Positions 1 through 10,750 of a stretch of DNA of 13,408 nt are shown here, piece by piece. Positions within the stretch are counted from its first letter, which is position 1. Every line of letters starts with the position of its first letter. Origin of the DNA: Ruminococcus flavefaciens (GTDB taxonomy: Bacteria; Bacillota; Clostridia; Oscillospirales; Ruminococcaceae); the NCBI GenBank assembly GCA_902796705.1, contig CADBQF010000285.1:1-13408 (forward strand). Reading direction: 5' to 3'. The notes under the pieces were generated by a model. That model saw nothing but the letters and a program-made list of their open reading frames with translations, searched no databases and was not told where the DNA came from. The translations under genes and the position numbers were made by a program.

Positions 1-278
1 AGGAACAGCTTATGGATATTTTCGTTCATAGCATAGGAAAGGAGCTTTTTCTCCTGTCTGAGTTTAGGTGCGGTATCTGCAAAAAGGCCTATGAACCGTT
101 CTTTCTGTGTTATGATATCTATGCCGTGACTGCTGACTATCTTCCTGACGGCGGAAACAGCCGTCATTTCTTCCGCAGCTTTTTTCTTTTCAGAAAAAAC
201 ACTTTTGCATATAGGGCAGATATCGAGTTTCTGTCCGGGCTTTTCTATCCATTCAAATCCGCACGAATCGCATTTCAT
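1..278 (-). CDS. Zinc-ribbon/helical-domain protein, paralog of the upstream MORN proteins (3' end outside window)
   Basis: Partial gene: the start is present and the reading frame runs off the left edge after 92 complete codons. The protein starts MKCDSCGFEW and has cysteines at 3, 6, 21 and 24 (CxxC...CPxC), a treble-clef or zinc-ribbon pattern, one residue tighter between the pairs than in its paralogs. Residues about 38-92 form the helical domain shared with the next three genes, with the same core (ITQKERFIGLF, then APKL, then EKKLL). The ATG at 276-278 is preceded by GGAGGA at about 284-289. It lies 27 bases after the stop of the previous gene on the same strand and is probably in the same operon. 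MORN repeats would be expected downstream from the paralogs but are not visible here. The molecular function is unknown; cytosolic location is inferred from the absence of a signal peptide. Confidence 0.85.
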   Translation of the reverse strand, partial: MKCDSCGFEWIEKPGQKLDICPICKSVFSEKKKAAEEMTAVSAVRKIVSSHGIDIITQKERFIGLFADTAPKLRQEKKLLSYAMNENIHKLF

Positions 279-305
279 AGCTGTTCCTCCAGTTGATATC
301 CGGTA

Positions 306-1457
306 TCAGATGAATTTGCCTAAAATGCTCGTTGTCTTGAATTCATCGTTCTCCCAGACACCTTTTTTGACTTTTCCGTTATGAGTGAACGAACCTACGC
401 CGTGGCGGTCGTCCTGATTCCATTCGCCCTCATATTTATCGCCGTTTTTGTAATACATTATACCCTGACCGTAACGCTTGTTGAGCCGCCAGCTTCCGTC
501 GTAGTTATCGCCGTTGATGTAGAACATCCTGCCGTATCCGCTCTGTGAGCCGTTCTTGAAATTGCCGGTGTAGATGTCACCGTTCCTGAATTCCATTTTG
601 CCCATTCCGTCGAGGTCGTCGTTTTTCCATTCGCCCTCATAGACATTCCCGTTGGAATATCTCATGATGCCCTTGCCGGAGCGTTCGCCATTTTTCCAGC
701 TTCCGTCATAGACATCGCCGCCGGAATACTTCATGACGCCTTTTCCGGAGCGTTTTCCGTTTTTCCAGCCGCCCTCGTAAACATCTCCGGAGGGATATTT
801 CATGATGCCTTTTCCTGTACGCTGACCGTTTTTCCATTCGCCCTCGTAGACATTCCCGTCAGGATATGTCATAGTGCCGTTTCCGTGCGGCAGACCGGCG
901 GAATTCTTTTCTCCGGAATATTCAGCACCTTTCGGGAGGATATTGTCCGGGATATTTTTTTCAGCCGGAGCAGTTTTTTCCGGAGCTTTCACAGTTTCGG
1001 CAGATTTTTCTTTTTCAGCGGGAGCAGGGGAGACAGCTTTTTCCTGTATAGCTTCGTTCCAGCCGAGAGCTTCGGATAAAATGCCGATAAGTCTGTCTAC
1101 AGCCTCAGAAGTGAGCAGTCCTTCAAGCTCAGCTTTTACCTCTGAGATCACCGCATTGTTCTCCTTATCGCCATAGATGATGAAATGGCGAAGGGCATCT
1201 CCTGCGGCTGCCATAGCGAGCAGCTTTCGTTCATATGTCAGTTTAGGGGCGAGAGCATTGAAGCGTTCTATGAATCTTGTATGCTGTGTCAGTATATCTA
1301 TGCCGTACTGTTTTATGATCGTCCCTACAGCTTTTCCGGCGGAGATATCGTCCGTATCCGCCTTGATGCCGAGAGATGCCTTGCATACAGGACAATTTGT
1401 GAAATTATCTTTTCCGGGGCGGTCTACCCATTCAAATCCGCATGACTGACATTTCAT
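306..1457 (-). CDS. Zinc-ribbon MORN-repeat protein, 383 aa
   Basis: Residues 1-25 hold the zinc ribbon (Cys3, Cys6, Cys22, Cys25). Residues about 40-134 hold the conserved helical region (core RFIERFNALAPKL, then ERKLL, ending at ALGW). Residues about 138-172 are a linker rich in Ala, Pro, Glu and Lys. From about residue 180 to 360 there are about eight MORN repeats of 23 residues, consensus-like VYEGEWKNG..-GKG-M-Y-NGD. The protein ends in a tail, WENDEF...GKFI, that resembles the ends of its two complete paralogs. There is no signal peptide or membrane helix, so it is probably cytosolic. In known families MORN arrays form beta-hairpin solenoids that mediate dimerisation or lipid/protein contact; the role here is not known. 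The start is ATG at 1455-1457 with GGAGGT at 1464-1469. It sits 18 bases after the stop of the 772-aa paralog. Confidence 0.93.
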   Translation of the reverse strand: MKCQSCGFEWVDRPGKDNFTNCPVCKASLGIKADTDDISAGKAVGTIIKQYGIDILTQHTRFIERFNALAPKLTYERKLLAMAAAGDALRHFIIYGDKENNAVISEVKAELEGLLTSEAVDRLIGILSEALGWNEAIQEKAVSPAPAEKEKSAETVKAPEKTAPAEKNIPDNILPKGAEYSGEKNSAGLPHGNGTMTYPDGNVYEGEWKNGQRTGKGIMKYPSGDVYEGGWKNGKRSGKGVMKYSGGDVYDGSWKNGERSGKGIMRYSNGNVYEGEWKNDDLDGMGKMEFRNGDIYTGNFKNGSQSGYGRMFYINGDNYDGSWRLNKRYGQGIMYYKNGDKYEGEWNQDDRHGVGSFTHNGKVKKGVWENDEFKTTSILGKFI

Positions 1458-1475
1458 GTATATACCTCCAGTTTA

Positions 1476-3794
1476 TCAGAATAATTTGAAAATGGACTGA
1501 AATTCATCGAATTTCCATGTTCCCGTCTTGCTTTTTCCGTTCTTTTTATAAAGAGTCCCGTTTCCGTGCCGTCTGTTGTATTTCCATTCTCCGTCGTATA
1601 TCTCACCGTTTGCGTAGACCATTCTGCCTTTTCCGGAGCGTTCGCCGTTTTCCCATTCGCCGGTGTAAACGCTGCCGTTGGGGTAGTGCATAGTACCCTT
1701 GCCCTCATAATGTCCGTTTTTCCATTCGCCGTCATAGAAGCTGCCGTCAGGAAAAGTTTCTTTTCCCTTGCCTGTACGACTGCCGGAGTTCCAGTATCCG
1801 TCGTAAACAGAGCCGTTTTTGTAAGTCATTACCCCTTTTCCGGACTGGACATCGTTATGCCAGTTACCGTCGTAGGAAGTGCCGTTGGAATAGAGGATCT
1901 TTCCCTTTCCATAACGCTTATCGTCGTTCCAGCCGCCTTCGTAGATATCACCGTTGTCATAGTACATTTTTCCGAAGCCGCTGCGTTTGCCGTATTTTAT
2001 ATCTCCGGAGTATTTACCGTTCAGGAATCGGATAATTTTCTGGCTGTCGGAATTTTTCAGCATACCGTTTTCAAATATGCCTGATTCTTTTCTGCCGTCA
2101 GCATAGGTGAGAGTGCCTTTTCCGTTGTAGATGCCGTATTTCCATTCGCCCTCGTATATACGTCCGTCGCCGTATGTCATTCTGCCGTATCCGTTGCGTG
2201 AGCCGTACTTCCAGTCTCCGTCATAAATATCACCGTTTGAATATCTCATCCTGCCTTTGCCGGACGGCGTGGCATCTTCCCACTGGCCAGTATAAAAATC
2301 GCCGTTTTTATAGTGCATCCTGCCTCTTCCGTGACGCTTGCCGTCTTTGAATTCACCGTAATATGTGCCGTTGCTGAATTCTCTTTTCTCTTTTGCAGTG
2401 CTGTTATCAAGCGATGAAAAAGTGCTGTCCAGAAGCTTGCCGTCTGACCATTTGCCGCTCGACTGTTTTCCGTCCCCGTAGGTGATAGTTCCCTGACCGT
2501 TACGCATATCGTCCGACCATTCGCCCACATATTTGCAGCCGTCGTGATATTCCATGACACCGTGTCCGGAGCGTTTTCCGTTTTGCCATTTGCCGGTATA
2601 GATATCATTGTTTTTGTAGAACATAGTTCCTTTTCCGTGCGGTAAGGAATCCTTTATTTCGCCTGAATATCTTCCGTCCGGCAGGTCCAGAGTATGTTTT
2701 CCGGAAAGCGGCATACCGTTCTTCCAGTTGCCCTCGAATACATTGCCGTTTGCGTAGGTCATTTTTCCGTATCCTGTTCGTGAACCGAATTTCCATTCGC
2801 CCTCATAGACAGAACCGTCGGCATATTTCATCTTACCTTTTCCGGACTGTGCATCTTCTGACCATTCGCCGTCGTAAACATCGCCGTTATTGTAACGCAT
2901 GATGCCTTTTCCGTGACGCTTTGAATCCTTGATATCGCCTGTATAAGAGCCGTTGCTGAGCTTTAACGTTCTGTTCTGGGGCATAGTATCCTGAACAGCT
3001 TTTCCGTCAATCCATTCACAGGTGAATGAGCTTCCGTCCGGGAAAGTCATAGTACCTTTTCCGTTGGGGAGATCGTTTTCCCATATACCCTCAAATATCT
3101 TTCCGTCCGAAAAGACTTTCTTTCCAATGCCTGACCGCTTGTCATCTGACCAGTTTCCGGAATATGACGAACCGTCAGTATATTTCATAATGCCCTGACC
3201 GTTCCTGCTGTTGTCTTTCCATTCGCCGTCGTAGACATCGCCGTTGGAATACTTCATCACGCCTTTTCCGTGCTTTTTGGTGCCTTGCATCTCGCCTGTG
3301 TATTCGCCGTTGTAGAAGATCTCAGTGCGGATATTTCCGGAGGAATTCTTTTCGGGAAGGTTATTTTCAGCCGGAGCGATATCTATCTCATTATCCCAGC
3401 CGAAAGCTTTGGTGAATATCTCAAGTATCTTTACAGCCGAATCCCTGTTGAGGACTTCTGTGAGCGTTTTTCCGGCTTTACGCAGAGAATCCTCACGCTG
3501 ATCGTCTTTGCATCTGATAAAGAAATTCTGTATATTCTCCGCAAAAGCATGGAGGAGAAGCCGCTTTTCATGTGAAAGCTTGGGTGCGATATCCCCGAAA
3601 AGACCGATAAACCGTTCTTTCTGCTGCAAGATGCCCATACCGTATCTGTTGATTATCTCCTTTACAGCATCAGCCGCAGTAAGGTCTGTACTGACCGGCT
3701 TTTCTGTAAGCTGTCTGCCGCAGAACGGGCATTTCGTCTGGTTGGAGAAGTCAGGACTTGCTTTCCACTCCGAGCCGCATGAATTACATTTCAT
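1476..3794 (-). CDS. Large zinc-ribbon MORN-repeat protein, 772 aa, with block super-repeat
   Basis: Residues 1-25 carry the zinc ribbon (Cys3, Cys6, Cys22, Cys25) and about 40-133 the helical domain (core QQKERFIGLFGDIAPKL, ending FTKAFGW). A short linker leads into about 25 MORN or degenerate MORN units from residue 161 to about 760. These fall into five blocks opening near residues 165, 284, 376, 479 and 595; each block opens with a Y-[ST/Y]-G-[ED]-x-K-like unit and the first four close with a repeat that loses the consensus. The protein ends WKFDEFQSIFKLF. An in-frame ATG two codons upstream (3798-3800) touches the GAGGT of the ribosome binding site directly. I prefer the ATG at 3792-3794, which gives six bases of spacing and an MKC start like the paralogs. 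No signal peptide or membrane helix is seen. Function unknown; a long binding scaffold is a reasonable inference. Confidence 0.93.
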   Translation of the reverse strand: MKCNSCGSEWKASPDFSNQTKCPFCGRQLTEKPVSTDLTAADAVKEIINRYGMGILQQKERFIGLFGDIAPKLSHEKRLLLHAFAENIQNFFIRCKDDQREDSLRKAGKTLTEVLNRDSAVKILEIFTKAFGWDNEIDIAPAENNLPEKNSSGNIRTEIFYNGEYTGEMQGTKKHGKGVMKYSNGDVYDGEWKDNSRNGQGIMKYTDGSSYSGNWSDDKRSGIGKKVFSDGKIFEGIWENDLPNGKGTMTFPDGSSFTCEWIDGKAVQDTMPQNRTLKLSNGSYTGDIKDSKRHGKGIMRYNNGDVYDGEWSEDAQSGKGKMKYADGSVYEGEWKFGSRTGYGKMTYANGNVFEGNWKNGMPLSGKHTLDLPDGRYSGEIKDSLPHGKGTMFYKNNDIYTGKWQNGKRSGHGVMEYHDGCKYVGEWSDDMRNGQGTITYGDGKQSSGKWSDGKLLDSTFSSLDNSTAKEKREFSNGTYYGEFKDGKRHGRGRMHYKNGDFYTGQWEDATPSGKGRMRYSNGDIYDGDWKYGSRNGYGRMTYGDGRIYEGEWKYGIYNGKGTLTYADGRKESGIFENGMLKNSDSQKIIRFLNGKYSGDIKYGKRSGFGKMYYDNGDIYEGGWNDDKRYGKGKILYSNGTSYDGNWHNDVQSGKGVMTYKNGSVYDGYWNSGSRTGKGKETFPDGSFYDGEWKNGHYEGKGTMHYPNGSVYTGEWENGERSGKGRMVYANGEIYDGEWKYNRRHGNGTLYKKNGKSKTGTWKFDEFQSIFKLF
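1515..3314 (-). repeat. MORN-coding tandem repeat array (about 69-base period)
   Basis: These bases encode residues 161-760 of the 772-aa protein as consecutive units of mostly 23 codons. The units are diverged at the DNA level but keep the Tyr/Phe-x-Gly-x-Trp and Gly-x-Gly positions. Degenerate, longer connector units occur around residues 257-281, 351-374, 443-475 and 567-592 and divide the array into five blocks. This is a coding repeat, not a CRISPR or a non-coding satellite. Confidence 0.9.
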
Positions 3795-3811
3795 AGTCAT
3801 ACCTCAGTTTA

Positions 3812-5368
3812 TCATGATCTGTTGAAAAGATTTTTGAAAAAGCAGAAACTTCCGTTTTTCCATTCGCCTGTCTTTGTTTTACCGTTCGGATAGTGCATTG
3901 TTCCCTGCCCGTGAGGTTTTAGATCGTCCCATTCGCCTTCGTAAACATTGCCGTTGGGGTAAGTGATCTTTCCTTTGCCTTTTTTTTGCACCAATTGAGA
4001 AGTATCCCATTCGCCGTCGTATATTGTAATAGCCTTATCGTAAACATATTTCAGTTTTCCCTTAGTCAGCTTTCCGTCTTTGAAAGTTCCCGCATAGGTA
4101 TATGAATAATGTCTCATATAACCAGTTATTGTATTATAGCCGTATTCAATGCCGGTGTCGTATCCTGAATATTCATACATACCATATCCACTAAGCTTAT
4201 CGTCTTTCCATTCGCCCTCATAGGAATACTTTATATTATTGTCCGAATATGACATTTTACCCTGTCCGCAGCGTTTATAGTTATCCCATTCGCCATAATA
4301 ATACCTGTTATCAGCGGTATAGTGTATACTTCCGTTCCCTTTTGTATATCCTCTCCATGTACCGGAAAAGATGTTCCCAGAATGTTGAGAAGTACCGCTT
4401 CCGTAAGGAATGTCTTTTGTCCAGCCGCCCTCATAATAATCTCCATTTTTATAGATCAGTTTTCCATTTCCCCAACGTTTGCCGCCTCTCCATTCGCCGT
4501 CATAGATCTCACCGCTTTGATATTTTGCTCTGCCTTTTCCGTGCGGCTGACCTTTTGCATTTACTTCGCCTGTATAAGTGAAGTCATTGATTTTTCTGTC
4601 GGTAACATATTTTTCAACTGGCGGTGCGGGAACAGGTTTGGGTGAAGGCTGCGGCGAAGGAACAGACTTGGCAGGTGTTTTCTTTGTGGTTTGGGTTTGG
4701 GGAGCGTTCTTTGACTTGGCAGGAGTCTTCTTTGTGGTTTGGGTTGTGGAAACACTTTCTGATTTTGCAGGCGTTTTCTTTGGTGTTTTTGTTTTGGAAG
4801 CCGTCTTTTTGCTGCTGTCCGCTACGCTTTTTTGAGATTCTGAAATTACTTCCTTACTCTTTTTTATGTAAATATGAAGAAGCTGATAATAAAGCTTTGC
4901 ACGCAGAGCAAAGAGTTCCTGCGAAGAAGTGATATCACCGCCTTCATTTTCCGCTGAGGGAGCTGAGTTCCATTCAAAAGCTTCAGTAAAAATACCGATT
5001 ATCTTATCCACAGAAGCATCGTTCATCATTTCAGAAAGAATGTACCTTACACGCTTTAAAACGTCAGGACGTTCGCTTTCTTCACATTTTATGAAGAATT
5101 TAGCGATGTTTTCATTGAGAGCATATGTGAGCAGTTTTTTCTCCTGTACAAGCTTCGGGGCAAAATCACTGAAAAGTCCTAAGAATCGCTCTTTTTGCAG
5201 GATAATGTCACTTCCGTATCCCCGGAATATCTCCTTTACTGCCTGCTCAGCGGTAAGCTCTGTATCAGGAGAAGCCGCCGCAAGCGATATCCCGCAGAAC
5301 GGACAAACCGTCTGTTCTGAAAAACGTGGACTTGCTTTCCACTCCGAGCCGCATGAAAAACACCGCAT
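3812..5368 (-). CDS. Zinc-ribbon MORN-repeat protein with Lys/Pro-rich KKTPAK linker, 518 aa
   Basis: First gene of the paralog cluster. Residues 1-25 hold the zinc ribbon (Cys3, Cys6, Cys22, Cys25) and about 40-133 the helical domain (QKERFLGLFSDFAPKL, ending FTEAFEW). Residues about 150-175 are a predicted helix (ELFALRAKLYYQLLHIYIKK). Residues about 185-252 form a basic, Pro-rich linker with three 16-residue repeats containing KKTPAK. From about 264 to 500 there are roughly nine MORN units; several in the middle (about 375-450) are irregular, long and tyrosine-rich, while the last two are canonical. The tail FCFFKNLFNRS is aromatic like those of its paralogs. ATG at 5366-5368 follows AGGAGG at 5375-5380. 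It lies 47 bases after pgcA on the same strand, with a hairpin between. It is likely cytosolic. The function is unknown; the basic linker could contact nucleic acid, polyphosphate or acidic membranes (inference). Confidence 0.93.
   Translation of the reverse strand: MRCFSCGSEWKASPRFSEQTVCPFCGISLAAASPDTELTAEQAVKEIFRGYGSDIILQKERFLGLFSDFAPKLVQEKKLLTYALNENIAKFFIKCEESERPDVLKRVRYILSEMMNDASVDKIIGIFTEAFEWNSAPSAENEGGDITSSQELFALRAKLYYQLLHIYIKKSKEVISESQKSVADSSKKTASKTKTPKKTPAKSESVSTTQTTKKTPAKSKNAPQTQTTKKTPAKSVPSPQPSPKPVPAPPVEKYVTDRKINDFTYTGEVNAKGQPHGKGRAKYQSGEIYDGEWRGGKRWGNGKLIYKNGDYYEGGWTKDIPYGSGTSQHSGNIFSGTWRGYTKGNGSIHYTADNRYYYGEWDNYKRCGQGKMSYSDNNIKYSYEGEWKDDKLSGYGMYEYSGYDTGIEYGYNTITGYMRHYSYTYAGTFKDGKLTKGKLKYVYDKAITIYDGEWDTSQLVQKKGKGKITYPNGNVYEGEWDDLKPHGQGTMHYPNGKTKTGEWKNGSFCFFKNLFNRS
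4643..4786 (-). repeat. Three 48-base tandem repeats encoding KKTPAK units
   Basis: Residues 195-242 of the 518-aa protein are three 16-residue units (48 bases each), each containing KKTPAKS. On the plus strand the repeated core reads like ACTTGGCAGG, then TCTTTGTGGTTTGGGT in two of the three copies; the third copy is more diverged. The composition resembles histone H1-like basic tails, an analogy only. Confidence 0.85.
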
Positions 5369-5415: not shown

Positions 5416-7131
5416 TTATTCAAATATCTTTGTAAAGTCGCCTGCCAGCTTAGCTTCGAGCACCTCGGCATCAGCGTGTGTAGGCTGCTTTGCAGTGAAG
5501 TAAGTCTTGATCTTAGGTTCAGTGCCTGACGGACGGACGATCACCTTTGAACCGCCCTCAAGGAAGAACGCAAGGACGTTCGACTTAGGAAGAGTTATCT
5601 GTGTCTCCTGACCTGTTGTGAGGTCACGGGAAATACTTGCATCGTAGTCGTCAAATCTTACAACTTTGAGACCGCCGATCTCTGTCGGGTGGGCAGTGCG
5701 GAGAGAAGTCATGAGGTCTTTCATCTTTGTCATGCCGCTCTCGCCTGCGAATTCAAAGCTGTGGAGAGTCTGGTGGAAAACACCGTACTTCTTGTACATA
5801 TTCTCTCTTGCTTCGAGGAGCGTGATGCCCTTTGTGCGGTAGTAAGCAGCCATTTCGCAGATGAGCATTGAAGCGTCAACAGCGTCCTTGTCACGTACAT
5901 AAGTGCCTGAGAGGTAGCCGTAGCTCTCTTCAAATCCGAAAATATAGCGGTTCTCTTCGCCGTCAGCTTCGAGAAGACCGATCTGCTCACCGATGAACTT
6001 GAATCCTGTGAGGACTTCTCTTATCTCAACGCCGTATTCCTTGCCGATGAGATTAACTATATCAGTAGTAACGATAGTCTTGACAGCAACAGGTCTTTCG
6101 GGCATAGTGCCGTTTTCAGTTCTCTGCTGGCAGATATATTCGAGGAGCATAGCACCGACTTCATTTCCTGAGAAGAGTGCATATCCGCCCTTTCCGTCCG
6201 GAACAGCGATGCCTACACGGTCGCAGTCGGGATCTGTAGCGAGGAGGAGATCAGGCTTTACTTCATCGCAGTAGCGGAGACCGACTGCAAGAGCCTCACG
6301 TATCTCAGGGTTCGGATAAGGACAGGTCGTGAAGTGTCCGTCCGGGTTCTCCTGTTCTTTTACTACAGTTACATCAGAAATGCCGATCCTGCGGAGGATC
6401 TCACGAACAGGCTTGTTTCCTGTACCGTTAAGGGGAGTGAAAACGACTTTGAGTCCGCTGTCAGCACAGAGTTTTGTATTGATGCCCTCTTTGAGTACGT
6501 TCTCATAGAAAGCATCGATAACGTCCTGACCGATGAAAGTGATATTGCCCTTTGCAACTTCCTCATCGAATACAGCGTGCTTTACGCCGTTGAATATATC
6601 GAGCGAATTGATCTTGCTCAGGATTATCTCAGCACCTCTGAGAGTTATCTGGCAGCCGTCCTCGCCGTATACCTTGTAGCCGTTGTACTTGGCAGGGTTG
6701 TGGCTGGCAGTTACCATGATACCGCCCTGGCATCTGAGCTGACGTACAGCGAAGGAGAGCATGGGGGTGGGCATGAGTTCGGTATAGATATGTACCTTTA
6801 TGCCGTTTGCAGCGAGTACCTCAGCAGCAGCCTTTGAGAAAACGTCCGACTTGATGCGGCTGTCGAAGGAGATAGCAACTGACGGTGAGTCATACTCCTG
6901 GTTGAGATAATCTGCGAATCCCTGTGTAGCACGTCTGACGGTATATATATTCATGCGGTTCGTACCGGCACCGATAACGCCTCTGAGACCGCCTGTACCG
7001 AATTCAAGGTCACGGTAGAATCTGTCGTTTATCTCTTCTGCATCACCTTTTATATTGACAAGTTCTTCTTTAAGATCGGGATCTTCTTTTGCGTTCTCGA
7101 TCCACAGATCATAAAGTTCGGTAACGTTCAT
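5416..7131 (-). CDS. pgcA: Alpha-phosphoglucomutase / phosphohexomutase family, 571 aa
   Basis: Converts glucose-1-phosphate and glucose-6-phosphate through a glucose-1,6-bisphosphate intermediate, feeding glycolysis, glycogen metabolism or UDP-glucose synthesis; cytosolic. All signature loops of the alpha-D-phosphohexomutase family are present in order: the FGTGGLRG substrate loop (44-51), the catalytic phosphoserine motif TASHNP (141-146, Ser143), the metal loop DPDCDR (300-305), the sugar-recognition loop GFEESYGY (399-406), and the phosphate loop RPSGTEPK (533-540). The length fits the long Firmicutes PgcA-type enzymes. The GFEES loop fits glucomutase activity, although some activity on mannose phosphates cannot be excluded. 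The ATG at 7129-7131 follows AGGAGG at 7139-7144 with 7-base spacing. It has its own promoter and follows the PFK gene's terminator, so it is probably a separate unit from PFK. Confidence 0.96.
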   Translation of the reverse strand: MNVTELYDLWIENAKEDPDLKEELVNIKGDAEEINDRFYRDLEFGTGGLRGVIGAGTNRMNIYTVRRATQGFADYLNQEYDSPSVAISFDSRIKSDVFSKAAAEVLAANGIKVHIYTELMPTPMLSFAVRQLRCQGGIMVTASHNPAKYNGYKVYGEDGCQITLRGAEIILSKINSLDIFNGVKHAVFDEEVAKGNITFIGQDVIDAFYENVLKEGINTKLCADSGLKVVFTPLNGTGNKPVREILRRIGISDVTVVKEQENPDGHFTTCPYPNPEIREALAVGLRYCDEVKPDLLLATDPDCDRVGIAVPDGKGGYALFSGNEVGAMLLEYICQQRTENGTMPERPVAVKTIVTTDIVNLIGKEYGVEIREVLTGFKFIGEQIGLLEADGEENRYIFGFEESYGYLSGTYVRDKDAVDASMLICEMAAYYRTKGITLLEARENMYKKYGVFHQTLHSFEFAGESGMTKMKDLMTSLRTAHPTEIGGLKVVRFDDYDASISRDLTTGQETQITLPKSNVLAFFLEGGSKVIVRPSGTEPKIKTYFTAKQPTHADAEVLEAKLAGDFTKIFE

Positions 7132-7386: not shown

Positions 7387-8469
7387 TCAGTCACCGAATG
7401 ACACACCGATATCACGTGCAGCAATGACGAGATGGTTCTCTGTATCGACGAATTTGGTTTTGCCTGCTATATCCTCAAGCTTGTTGGAAGTGATCTTGTT
7501 GCCGATCTTTGCGACTGTCCTGCCGTATTTTTCCTTTGCGATGAGGTATGCAGCGTGTACACCGAACTGAGTTGAGAGGACTCTGTCGTAGGCACTCGGA
7601 GCTCCGCCTCTGAGCATATGTCCGGGGACGCAGACTCTTGCCTCCATGCCGGTATTTGCCTGTATCTGGGCAGCTATGCGGCTCGTAGCAGTGATTATGC
7701 CTGCTTCTGCACGCTTCTTTGCACGTTCTTTTTTCTTCATCTGAGCTTCATTTATATCGAAAGCACCCTCAGCTACAGCGAGGATAGAGAAAGTCTTTCC
7801 GGATGCACTTCTTGCCATTACAGCATCACAGATCTTATCAATATCATAAGGTATTTCAGGTATGATGATTATATCAGCACCGCCTGCGATACCTGCATTG
7901 AGGGTGAGCCAGCCGGCTTTGTTTCCCATTATCTCGCATACGAGTATCCTTGAATGGCTCGCAGCGGTCGTGTGCAGACGGTCGATTACATCAGTTGCGA
8001 TATCGACAGCAGTATGGAAACCGAAGGTAACATCTGTTCCGTAGATATCGTTGTCGATAGTTTTGGGCAGACCTATTACATTAAGTCCTTCGTCAGCGAG
8101 GAGCTTTGAAGTCTTGTGAGTTCCGTTTCCGCCGAGAGTGAGGAGACAGTCGAGCTTCTGCTTGTGGTAGGTATCCTTCATGTTCTTTACCTTGTCAACG
8201 TTGTCCTCACCGATGACCTGCATCATCTTGAACGGCTGACGCTTAGTTCCGAAGATCGTTCCGCCCTGGGTGAGTATGCCCGAAAATGCTGACGGTGACA
8301 TATCCTTGCAGAGATTGTTTATGAGTCCGTAGTAGCCGTTGGATATTCCGACTATCTCAACATTGTCCTCACCGAAACGCTCATAACAGGCTTTAGCCAC
8401 ACCTCTGATCGTAGCGTTGAGTCCGGGGCAGTCGCCTCCGCTTGTGAGAATGCCTATCCTTCTTTTCAT
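7387..8469 (-). CDS. pfkA: 6-phosphofructokinase, 360 aa
   Basis: Phosphorylates fructose-6-phosphate to fructose-1,6-bisphosphate, the committed step of glycolysis. Nucleotide-loop motif TSGGDCPGLNA is at 9-19. The phosphoryl-donor loop is GGNGT (113-117) and the catalytic motif PKTIDND is at 135-141, with Asp139 matching the E. coli catalytic Asp127. Other fructose-6-P site motifs are MGNKAG (181-186), PE at 204-205 and LRGG at 286-289. By comparison with E. coli PfkA, Gly116 matches Gly104, a residue linked to ATP use. Lys136 replaces Gly124, as in pyrophosphate-type and long-group PFKs, and Asn115 replaces Asp103. ATP is the more likely donor, but this is not settled. The ATG at 8467-8469 follows GGAGGT at 8477-8482. 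It lies 37 bases after the phosphodiesterase gene with no clear terminator or promoter between, so the two may be co-transcribed. Confidence 0.95.
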   Translation of the reverse strand: MKRRIGILTSGGDCPGLNATIRGVAKACYERFGEDNVEIVGISNGYYGLINNLCKDMSPSAFSGILTQGGTIFGTKRQPFKMMQVIGEDNVDKVKNMKDTYHKQKLDCLLTLGGNGTHKTSKLLADEGLNVIGLPKTIDNDIYGTDVTFGFHTAVDIATDVIDRLHTTAASHSRILVCEIMGNKAGWLTLNAGIAGGADIIIIPEIPYDIDKICDAVMARSASGKTFSILAVAEGAFDINEAQMKKKERAKKRAEAGIITATSRIAAQIQANTGMEARVCVPGHMLRGGAPSAYDRVLSTQFGVHAAYLIAKEKYGRTVAKIGNKITSNKLEDIAGKTKFVDTENHLVIAARDIGVSFGD

Positions 8470-8506: not shown

Positions 8507-10750
8507 TTATTTCTGATCTTTTTTGGAAGTCTGCTTGATATTCTGCTCAAAGAAATCCTGCAATTTTTCAGCCGGCATGGGCTTTCCGTAGAGATATCCC
8601 TGACCGAAGTCACAGCCTGCCTTTCGGAGGATATCCTCCTGATTCGGATTTTCGATGCCTTCAGCGATAGTTTCTATCTTCTTGGATTTGGCTATCCTTA
8701 TGACGGAAGAAACTATCTCATATGCGATATTATCGTGTTCGATGTCGATGATGAACGACCTGTCGAGTTTCAGCAGAGTTATCGGGAGTATCTGCAAATA
8801 GCTCAGTGAAGAGTATCCTGTGCCGAAATCGTCCATTGCGAGTTTTACGCCGAGTTCACGCAGTTTGTTCATTTGTGAAACTGCGTAGTCGATATCGCTC
8901 AGGGCGAGAGTCTCGGTGAGTTCGACTTCGAGCCATTCGGCATCGAGACCGGATTTTGCGAGAGCCTCGAATACCTTGTCCCTCAGATCGGCCTGATAGA
9001 AGTCAGACGAAGTGAAGTTGATCGACATGACGATATTCGGATAACCCATTTTCTGCCACAGCTTGTTCTGGCGGCAGCCTTCGTTGAGTACGAATTCGCT
9101 TATCTTTCCGATAAGGTGCGAGCTTTCAGCGATAGGTACGAAAGAGTCCGGCTTCACGATAGTTCCGTCCGGCTTTATCCAGCGGATAAGAGCTTCAACG
9201 CCCATTATCTTTCCTGTTGAGAGATCTATTTTCGGCTGATAGAAGAGCTGGAGTTCGTTGTGCTTGATAGCGACGGCGAGTTCCTTTTCAAGCTCAGTCC
9301 TGCCGATTATGGAGTCGTGCATACTCGGTTCATAGCCGCATATGCTGCTGTTCGAGCCGACGCTTGATTTAAGGGCGAATTCGGCGTGTTCGAGGACTTC
9401 AAGGAATGAATTACCGTCCTCCGGCATCTTTGAATAGCCTGCCGAACAGCTAAGGTTGACGGAAGCAAAATCATCGACAGCGAGCTTTGCGAACTCGTCC
9501 TGTATAGCTTTTGCGGTTCTTATCGGGAGTTCATCGTCGCCGTAGTCACGCAGGACTATAGCGAAATTATCACCGCTCATACGTGCGGCAAGTCCGCCGG
9601 GCGTAACGAATTTATACATTATATGAGCGAAATTGCGGAGGATATAGTTTCCGTTCTGATAGCCGCAGGTATCGTTTATGATATGGAAACGGTCTATATC
9701 GAGAACTATTATCCAGTAGGAATATTTCAGCAGGCGGCAGGTCTCGAAAGTTTCCTGACCGACGTCCATGAGTTTGTTCCTGTTGGCGATCTCCGTAACT
9801 TCATCGATATACGCAAGACGCTCGATGAGAAGATCCTTTTCGTGTTCCTGAGTCACATCGATTATCGCACCGCCGAAGAGGGGGAGGGTGTTTCCCGTAC
9901 CCTTTATCGATTTATAGCGGTATGCGTACCATTTATAGAATCCGTCAGCAGAGCGTATGCGTATATCTATGCTCTTGACCTCGGCAGATTCGCCGGAGTC
10001 AACTGATTTTATCGCACTGTCGAACTGTATCCTGTCGTTCGGGTGAACGAGCGTGCGGAAGTTCTTGATGCTGATATTATTCGATTTAAGGCCGAGCATA
10101 CGGACTGTCTCAGTCGAAGCGACATAATTTTTCTTGTCGCTGCTCATGAGTATGCCGATCTCAGCGAGTTCCATAGAGGCGTTGAAGAAGTCGTTCGCAC
10201 TTGCGAGGTTGACCTTCATCTTTTTTATCTCAGTGAGGTTGAATCCCGTGCTGAGGTAGAGCGAGAGCTTTTTCTTCCTCTTGACGAGAGAAGTGCTCCA
10301 TGCTATAGTAGTGACCACGCCGTTGGCATTCTTGAACCTTGACTCATAGGAATTGCTCTCCGTGAGGTCTTTCACGACCTCCTTGTTGAGTTCCTTTAGG
10401 GCGAATGCACGCATGATCTCTTTTTTATAATCGAAATCAGTGCCGCTCAGACCGAGCTGCTGTCTCATACGCTTGTTCATATATACAGCGGAGAAGTCGT
10501 CGGTCCATATTATCATTTCTGTATTGAGACCTTCTGAGATGCCTGCGATATCGGAAGCATCGACAGAGGATTTATGCTTGCGGTAGATCCATGCAGCTAT
10601 CGAGAGTATTATGCTCAGGAAGGCGATGGTACATATATAAGTTATGATAACGGCTCTGGAGGTTTCCGGGTGGAAGCGGGTATATGCGATTATCAATCCT
10701 GTTGCAGCGGCAATAACGACGGCTGCACCCAGAGGACTATTATAACCCAA
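8507..10750 (-). CDS. Membrane-anchored PAS-GGDEF-EAL protein, probable c-di-GMP phosphodiesterase, 747 aa
   Basis: Two membrane helices lie at about 7-23 and 33-55, followed by two PAS-like segments (about 70-175 and 185-305; PAC-like WYAYRYKSIKG at 274-284). The GGDEF domain (about 310-470) is degenerate: the signature is SGDNF (392-396), with the catalytic Glu replaced by Asn, so diguanylate cyclase activity is unlikely. The EAL domain (about 485-735) keeps all expected catalytic residues: Glu519 (EAL), Asn578, Glu610 (ELTE), Asp640-Asp641 (DDFGTG), Lys661, Glu697 (AEGIE) and Gln717 (GQGYLYG). It should hydrolyse c-di-GMP to pGpG at the inner membrane face, with PAS and GGDEF as sensory input. 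The start is TTG at 10748-10750; AGGAGGGG (10757-10764) precedes it by six bases and no ATG is in reach. It is divergent from the response regulator gene and lies upstream of the PFK gene. Confidence 0.94.
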   Translation of the reverse strand: MGYNSPLGAAVVIAAATGLIIAYTRFHPETSRAVIITYICTIAFLSIILSIAAWIYRKHKSSVDASDIAGISEGLNTEMIIWTDDFSAVYMNKRMRQQLGLSGTDFDYKKEIMRAFALKELNKEVVKDLTESNSYESRFKNANGVVTTIAWSTSLVKRKKKLSLYLSTGFNLTEIKKMKVNLASANDFFNASMELAEIGILMSSDKKNYVASTETVRMLGLKSNNISIKNFRTLVHPNDRIQFDSAIKSVDSGESAEVKSIDIRIRSADGFYKWYAYRYKSIKGTGNTLPLFGGAIIDVTQEHEKDLLIERLAYIDEVTEIANRNKLMDVGQETFETCRLLKYSYWIIVLDIDRFHIINDTCGYQNGNYILRNFAHIMYKFVTPGGLAARMSGDNFAIVLRDYGDDELPIRTAKAIQDEFAKLAVDDFASVNLSCSAGYSKMPEDGNSFLEVLEHAEFALKSSVGSNSSICGYEPSMHDSIIGRTELEKELAVAIKHNELQLFYQPKIDLSTGKIMGVEALIRWIKPDGTIVKPDSFVPIAESSHLIGKISEFVLNEGCRQNKLWQKMGYPNIVMSINFTSSDFYQADLRDKVFEALAKSGLDAEWLEVELTETLALSDIDYAVSQMNKLRELGVKLAMDDFGTGYSSLSYLQILPITLLKLDRSFIIDIEHDNIAYEIVSSVIRIAKSKKIETIAEGIENPNQEDILRKAGCDFGQGYLYGKPMPAEKLQDFFEQNIKQTSKKDQK

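Follow-up and report, generated by a model that had tools for sequence, protein, structure and literature searches.

A tandem array of MORN genes with a shared N-terminus

We analyzed a stretch of 13,408 nucleotides (hereafter, the window) that is the entire contig CADBQF010000285.1 (C285) of the Ruminococcus flavefaciens assembly GCA_902796705.1 (2.27 Mb in 441 contigs, 88.7% completeness). The window contains four adjacent paralogs on the minus strand, genes A to D, which share a ribbon with four cysteines (ZnR) and a helical domain of about 100 residues that we labeled HEL; gene D holds only half of HEL. In A, B, and C, these domains are followed by MORN repeats. (C, L, and G followed by a number denote contigs, loci, and genomes.)

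All four proteins start with M-x-C-x2-C, followed by C-P-x-C. They align over about 135 residues with each other and with four further proteins of the same genome, at 30-54% identity to A. An AlphaFold2 model of residues 1-140 of protein A has the ribbon and then seven helices, with a mean predicted local distance difference test (pLDDT) score of 90.8. MORN repeats were called with Pfam PF02493 at its gathering cut-off of 22.5 bits, and all three complete proteins score above it: A with 4 stretches (73 bits), B with 21 stretches (355 bits), and C with 8 stretches (136 bits). Because the N-termini align and the MORN scores are far above the cut-off, the ZnR/HEL/MORN pattern is not due to chance. 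By our reading of the motif positions, the MORN units of B are arranged in five blocks. Also, an alternative ATG for gene B, at position 3794, agrees better with the paralogs.

The initial annotation of this DNA had described four adjacent same-strand paralogs with a ribbon and a helical domain, three of them complete and with differing MORN arrays, and the open reading frames (ORFs), the alignment, and the PF02493 scores all agree with this. It had also proposed co-expressed scaffolds of differing lengths, possibly in a length-graded assembly; what we can support is a set of intact, paralogous repeat scaffolds that are tightly packed, with gaps of 11 bp between A and B, 18 bp between B and C, and 27 bp between C and D.

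Table 1. Features of the window, with positions on contig C285.
Feature	Position	Strand	Description	Basis
gene A	5368-3812	minus	518 aa; ZnR at residues 3-25, HEL at about 37-136, Thr/Lys/Pro-rich linker at about 150-255, irregular MORN array at about 264-510	ORF, MORN, alignment
tandem 48-bp repeat in gene A linker	4665-4782	minus	repeated KTPAKS-like units	Tandem Repeats Finder (TRF); translation
gene B	3800-1476	minus	774 aa; ZnR-HEL and at least 21 MORN units	
gene C	1457-306	minus	383 aa; ZnR-HEL and 8 MORN units	
gene D	278-3	minus	first 92 residues (ZnR, half of HEL), cut at contig end	
terminator-like stem-loop	5408-5389	minus	between pgm and gene A	consensus match only
pgm	5416-7131	minus	phosphoglucomutase-type; one flank of array	Pfam, synteny
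phosphofructokinase (PFK)	7387-8469	minus	outside array	Pfam, synteny
PAS-GGDEF-EAL protein	8507-10750	minus	outside array	Pfam, synteny

The array probably contains six genes at a variable insertion site

On contig C194 (L011), of which we examined the last 8.1 of 14.1 kb, the right end encodes a MORN protein that lacks a start (G; an open-ended ORF of 234 residues, L011 8081-7377), followed by E (375-382 aa) and F (279 aa). In the alignment, D ends about three residues ahead of the start of G, and the frames are compatible with a single gene. Judging from these sequences, gene D probably continues as G. We found no overlap between the ends of C285 and C194, but the gene order in relatives supports joining them. 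Specifically, pgm is followed by yigZ-dgt-dnaG-rpoD, on one strand, in all 8 of the relatives' loci that we examined; the EAL and PFK genes lie ahead of pgm in 6 of the 8 (L211 stops at pgm and L215 differs there); and an L31 gene (rpmE) lies ahead of yigZ in L212, L213, and L215 (confirmed by Pfam in L213). In our genome, EAL-PFK-pgm is on C285 and rpmE-yigZ-dgt-dnaG-rpoD is on C194. (Genes on C194 were named by reading their sequences, and rpmE by its match to a relative that Pfam names.) Furthermore, by coordinates, pgm and dgt are 1.1-3.4 kb apart, in the same order and on the same strand, in 11 of 16 genomes of the genus that we searched. The exceptions are G059 and G032 (nearby, with a different order or strand), G029 (24 kb apart), and G028 and G037 (separate contigs).

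The array therefore probably totals six ZnR-HEL-MORN genes, in about 8.1 kb between pgm and rpmE, and the original count of four, which is correct for the window, was an edge effect. The spot between pgm and rpmE is a variable insertion site: it holds other genes in 3 of the 8 relatives' loci (L214, L216, and L217), including one with DUF6311.

The HEL domains of A, B, C, E, and F form a single clade in a phylogenetic tree (support 93/89), which implies that the array grew by duplication within this lineage. These five are all of the fully readable copies, and all are intact, with the others 38-54% identical to A at the N-terminus. A second assembly also contains the full-length protein from gene A, with 9 substitutions, none of which is in residues 1-150 (p = 0.065, not significant). 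Among the listed matches that we read, we saw no other ZnR-HEL-MORN protein in the genus.

HEL is joined to many different arms

We scanned 28 members of HEL against Pfam at E < 10. No family appears to cover HEL, and none matched more than 3 members; the best single match (E = 7.6e-4) was to DUF3942, which matched 2 members. As described in the available part of PMC7159879, effector-associated domains (EADs) are helical and act as adaptors, linking effectors with the core parts of a system. There was no match to EAD families among the 25 listed of the 36 weak Pfam matches. HEL would resemble EADs in the way it works, as a small helical domain joined to many different partners.

Besides MORN in the window, HEL is fused to Sel1, LRR_5, FGE, YfhO, DHHW, UvrD, Clp_N, zf-C4_ClpX, and, weakly, a DEAD helicase. 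The commonest HEL proteins in the genus are ZnR-HEL-LRR_5 proteins, followed by a HEL-Sel1 class. Most of the ZnR-HEL-LRR_5 proteins are from Ruminococcus, and those that have a name are annotated as cell wall-binding or leucine-rich repeat proteins. They have the same N-terminal module as the window's proteins, but they have an LRR_5 arm, lie within a kinase operon, and are usually present in a single copy. MORN and HEL are also combined in G019, in the reverse order, with MORN first (HEL at E = 2.4e-5 among the fetched ORFs, and MORN by Pfam), and in G895 a gene upstream of the kinase encodes HEL with a tail that weakly resembles MORN (Pfam E = 0.009, below the cut-off). G029 and G059 combine the ribbon with MORN (by Pfam) without HEL, as does G060 with a partial ribbon.

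Several related genes deserve mention in their own right. In G029, two ZnR-MORN genes without HEL (L067 8876-10845) lie between what we take, from their sequences, to be riboflavin genes. In G060, two contigs with similar neighbors end in MORN genes (L135/L136). Many of the genus loci that we fetched (L075 and similar) encode a MORN protein of about 374 amino acids that starts with MGMLDF or MGMMDF, without a match to the ribbon or HEL; this protein is not among the matches listed for the window's genome. L012 (3605-6547) encodes a 610-residue protein with a match to PADLOC's BnzA in its N-terminal part (E = 1.5e-8), Sel1 repeats, and a C-terminal ZnR-HEL, followed by a second Sel1 protein that apparently begins a HEL at the contig end. 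Finally, two fusions beside kinase modules are candidate defense versions of HEL proteins: one with a GajB-like UvrD helicase (L168 9471-11738) and another, by a weak match (E = 0.008), with a DpdF-like DEAD helicase (L169 14045-17170).

HEL genes accompany a kinase/vWA/PP2C module within the genus

The definition of the TerY-P triad is credited, reportedly, to Anantharaman and colleagues in 2012. As given in the available part of PMC11090510, the triad comprises the vWA protein TerY (with the motif DxSxS), a PP2C phosphatase, and a Ser/Thr kinase with a C-terminal ZnR. An actinobacterial trio of kinase-ZnR, PP2C, and vWA genes is likewise described (PMC7159879, in part), and some TerY-P modules occur in defense contexts (PMC11090510 and PMC4978471, both in part).

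Profile searches of 72 genomes from the genus showed that the same 60 genomes carry both HEL and this type of kinase, and that 12 carry neither (p = 6.5e-14; this and the other p value for co-occurrence are not corrected for shared descent). For this count, G005 was scored as lacking HEL, as its match covers the ribbon only. Furthermore, 58 of the 59 HEL matches in the LRR_5 size class share a contig with the kinase and lie less than 3 kb from it; the exception, in G016, is on a short contig. Three genomes, G013, G034, and G045, have no HEL matches other than those of HEL-Sel1 size, and all three have the kinase (on another contig in G013 and G045).

The kinase and vWA genes adjoin the ZnR-HEL-LRR_5 gene in all seven loci with enough context (L013, L053-L057, and L071), and a PP2C gene is present in six of these; L071 ends within the vWA gene. 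L058, on a contig of just 5.6 kb, has no kinase neighborhood next to its ZnR-HEL-LRR_5 gene. A second type of locus (L065, L066, and L072) has two TerD-type genes (identified by Pfam in L065; in L066 and L072, their first residues match) along with the kinase, vWA, PP2C, and HEL-LRR_5 genes. Across 17 aligned kinases, the ribbon cysteines are at nearly identical places.

The window's genome has three such kinase modules, on contigs C408, C333, and C125. The C408 operon has all three parts of the triad: a vWA protein (PF00092, 34 bits) with a metal ion-dependent adhesion site (MIDAS) motif, DTSGS; a PP2C protein (PF13672, 116 bits); and a Ser/Thr kinase (PF00069, 39.8 bits) with a C-terminal zinc ribbon (cysteines 325, 327, 346, and 349).

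Two other features of kinase loci are of interest. A GGDEF-type gene follows the PP2C gene in the operons of L013 (1514-2566), L053, L054, and L057, which raises the possibility of a link to cyclic di-GMP. In G029, one stretch (L131 152-10168) contains the kinase, three vWA genes, PP2C, and an HSP70-type gene.

The association extends beyond the genus

In an order-level survey (394 genomes in each scan; we assume from the identifiers that these are the same set), 15 genomes had the kinase (E < 1e-60), 17 had HEL, and 13 had both (p = 3.4e-19). One of the 13, G848, has only a partial HEL match, just after PP2C. G839, which was scored as having the kinase only, is in fact a fourteenth: it encodes, directly upstream of the kinase, a ZnR-HEL-Sel1 protein whose ribbon resembles those in the window.

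We then considered the neighborhoods of HEL in 17 HEL-containing genomes from outside the genus, searching for kinases at E < 1e-15. HEL is near the kinase in 11 of the 17, or in 9 of 13 genera. We estimate that the chance of a randomly placed kinase falling near HEL in a genome of 2-3 Mb is about 1% per genome. Nine of the 11 kinase-bearing loci have the full kinase/vWA/PP2C set, and in the other two (G814 and G764) only the kinase was recognized. Counting Methylomonas (see below), 10 of the 14 other genera have the kinase beside HEL, whichever arm HEL carries.

Some kinase modules have more than one HEL gene beside them: four in G607, three in G200, two in G614 (one of them weak, E = 0.008), and five on a Methylomonas plasmid. 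We found this plasmid by comparing the HEL of Fuchsiella (G468) to a plasmid collection with tblastn, which returned one record, from the gammaproteobacterium Methylomonas sp. AM2-LC (CP157007.1, E = 5e-15). There (L139 6072-13501), kinase, vWA, and PP2C genes are followed by five tandem HEL genes: HEL-Sel1, two HELs with tails, Clp_N-HEL, and ClpX-zinc-finger-HEL. Because these HEL copies are nearly alike, they are recent duplicates that took different arms. Together with the rows in G607 and G200, this implies that tandem HEL genes with different arms beside a kinase module probably had more than one origin. Two genes beyond the row is a MORN protein without a match to HEL. The Clp_N and ClpX zinc-finger parts suggest a possible link from the switch to Clp proteolysis.

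HEL may be a docking module

HEL stays beside the kinase module while its fusion partners change, so it is best read as a docking part. We propose that HEL is the docking module of TerY-P-type systems and that the MORN proteins are exchangeable arms that serve the phospho-switch in trans; we would put the probability of this at roughly 50%. HEL, aided by the ribbon, would bind a common partner in a putative kinase/vWA/PP2C complex. The arm behind HEL (MORN here; LRR_5, Sel1, FGE, helicase, or Clp-type elsewhere) would select the client or the place, and the kinase and phosphatase would switch the arm, or the arm's client, through phosphorylation. For the MORN proteins, at least one of the modules on C408, C333, and C125 would be the partner.

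Several observations weigh against this proposal. Neither the window nor the examined part of C194 contains a kinase, vWA, or PP2C gene, so the array is tied to the switch only via its HEL domain. In the order-level survey, 4 of the 17 HEL-positive genomes lack the kinase (G076, G091, G100, and G660), and in these and in G418, which also has HEL, no kinase was found even at E < 1e-15. Conversely, the kinase locus of G836 has no clear HEL, and in G794 the kinase is on a different contig from HEL. Also, the kinases themselves have substitutions. The C408 kinase has a glycine in place of the asparagine found in most of these kinases (presumably the Mg-binding residue), so its catalytic set is incomplete. 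The C333 kinase (L120 3838-5181) has the sequence YHQMSRNSFF and lacks the aspartate that we take to be catalytic. This makes phosphotransfer by these two proteins uncertain, and the C333 protein may be a pseudokinase that is kept with its vWA and PP2C genes.

How does the array compare to known systems? The HEL genes are regularly encoded alongside modules like the triad, but the window's array includes none of the three parts, HEL is outside the definition in the available part of PMC11090510, and the arms are repeats or enzymes. As in other MORN proteins, such as TbMORN1, the repeats are 23 residues long and score above the Pfam cut-off, but the window's proteins are bacterial, have an N-terminal ZnR-HEL, and form a tandem array of paralogs. 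The initial annotation knew of no bacterial system with this make-up. Indeed, our literature search found no apparent description of HEL or of the ZnR-HEL-MORN array (Anantharaman et al. 2012 was outside that search), and no Pfam family appears to cover the domain. However, the N-terminal module is not an orphan: a kinase module lies beside many HEL genes, and the module belongs with kinase/vWA/PP2C modules of the TerY-P type. Overall, the original observation is confirmed and enlarged, and its interpretation is partly supported.

Alternatively, the MORN arms might self-assemble into dimers or into something larger, such as a filament, ring, or envelope patch, with homotypic interactions of HEL and ZnR, so that the link to the kinase is only ancestral. 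This would fit with the lack of a kinase module beside the array in the sequence examined and with the varying lengths of the arms of A, B, and C. Also, the repeats mediate dimerization in MORN proteins of known structure, and no binding of TbMORN1 to lipid vesicles was seen (PMC7725318, in part). We nevertheless consider such stand-alone scaffolds rather unlikely, as HEL adjoins the kinase in most genera outside the window's, with any arm, and we saw no sign of assembly.

Another explanation is that the array belongs to a TerY-P-linked response to phages or stress, in which the MORN proteins would be diverse sensors or effectors whose number grew through an arms race. The two TerD genes of the second-type loci, the fusions of HEL to a GajB-like helicase and (weakly) to a DpdF-like one, the reports of TerY-P modules in defense contexts, and the location of all 9 substitutions in gene A behind the N-terminus would be consistent with this. 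On the other hand, PADLOC families gave no match to A, B, or C, nor to the vWA and PP2C proteins that were tested; the Pfam scan found no nuclease or toxin domain in the array proteins; and the array is flanked by housekeeping genes. We think that a role in defense or stress is improbable for this array.

Lastly, a one-off tandem expansion with little function that is heading to loss, which the single clade of HELs and the presence of ZnR-HEL-MORN in just this genome (among the genus proteins read) might suggest, is very improbable, as the five readable copies are not decaying but intact at a divergence that makes them probably old, and protein A is full-length in the second assembly.

Returning to HEL as a docking module, a broader and more tentative version of the proposal casts HEL as an adaptor that connects many arms to a single TerY-P-type phospho-switch, in the manner of death-like adaptors in animals, and that is present in two or more phyla (the window's and Pseudomonadota). 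In that case, the six MORN proteins would be exchangeable scaffolds of different lengths, under phospho-control, that serve the hub in trans.

To our knowledge, few clients of TerY-P-type kinase modules have been proven, yet these modules recur in many bacteria. If HEL marks the partners of the kinase module, then searching for it would give a list of candidate clients in many genomes. Furthermore, the link through HEL gives bacterial MORN proteins a testable role.

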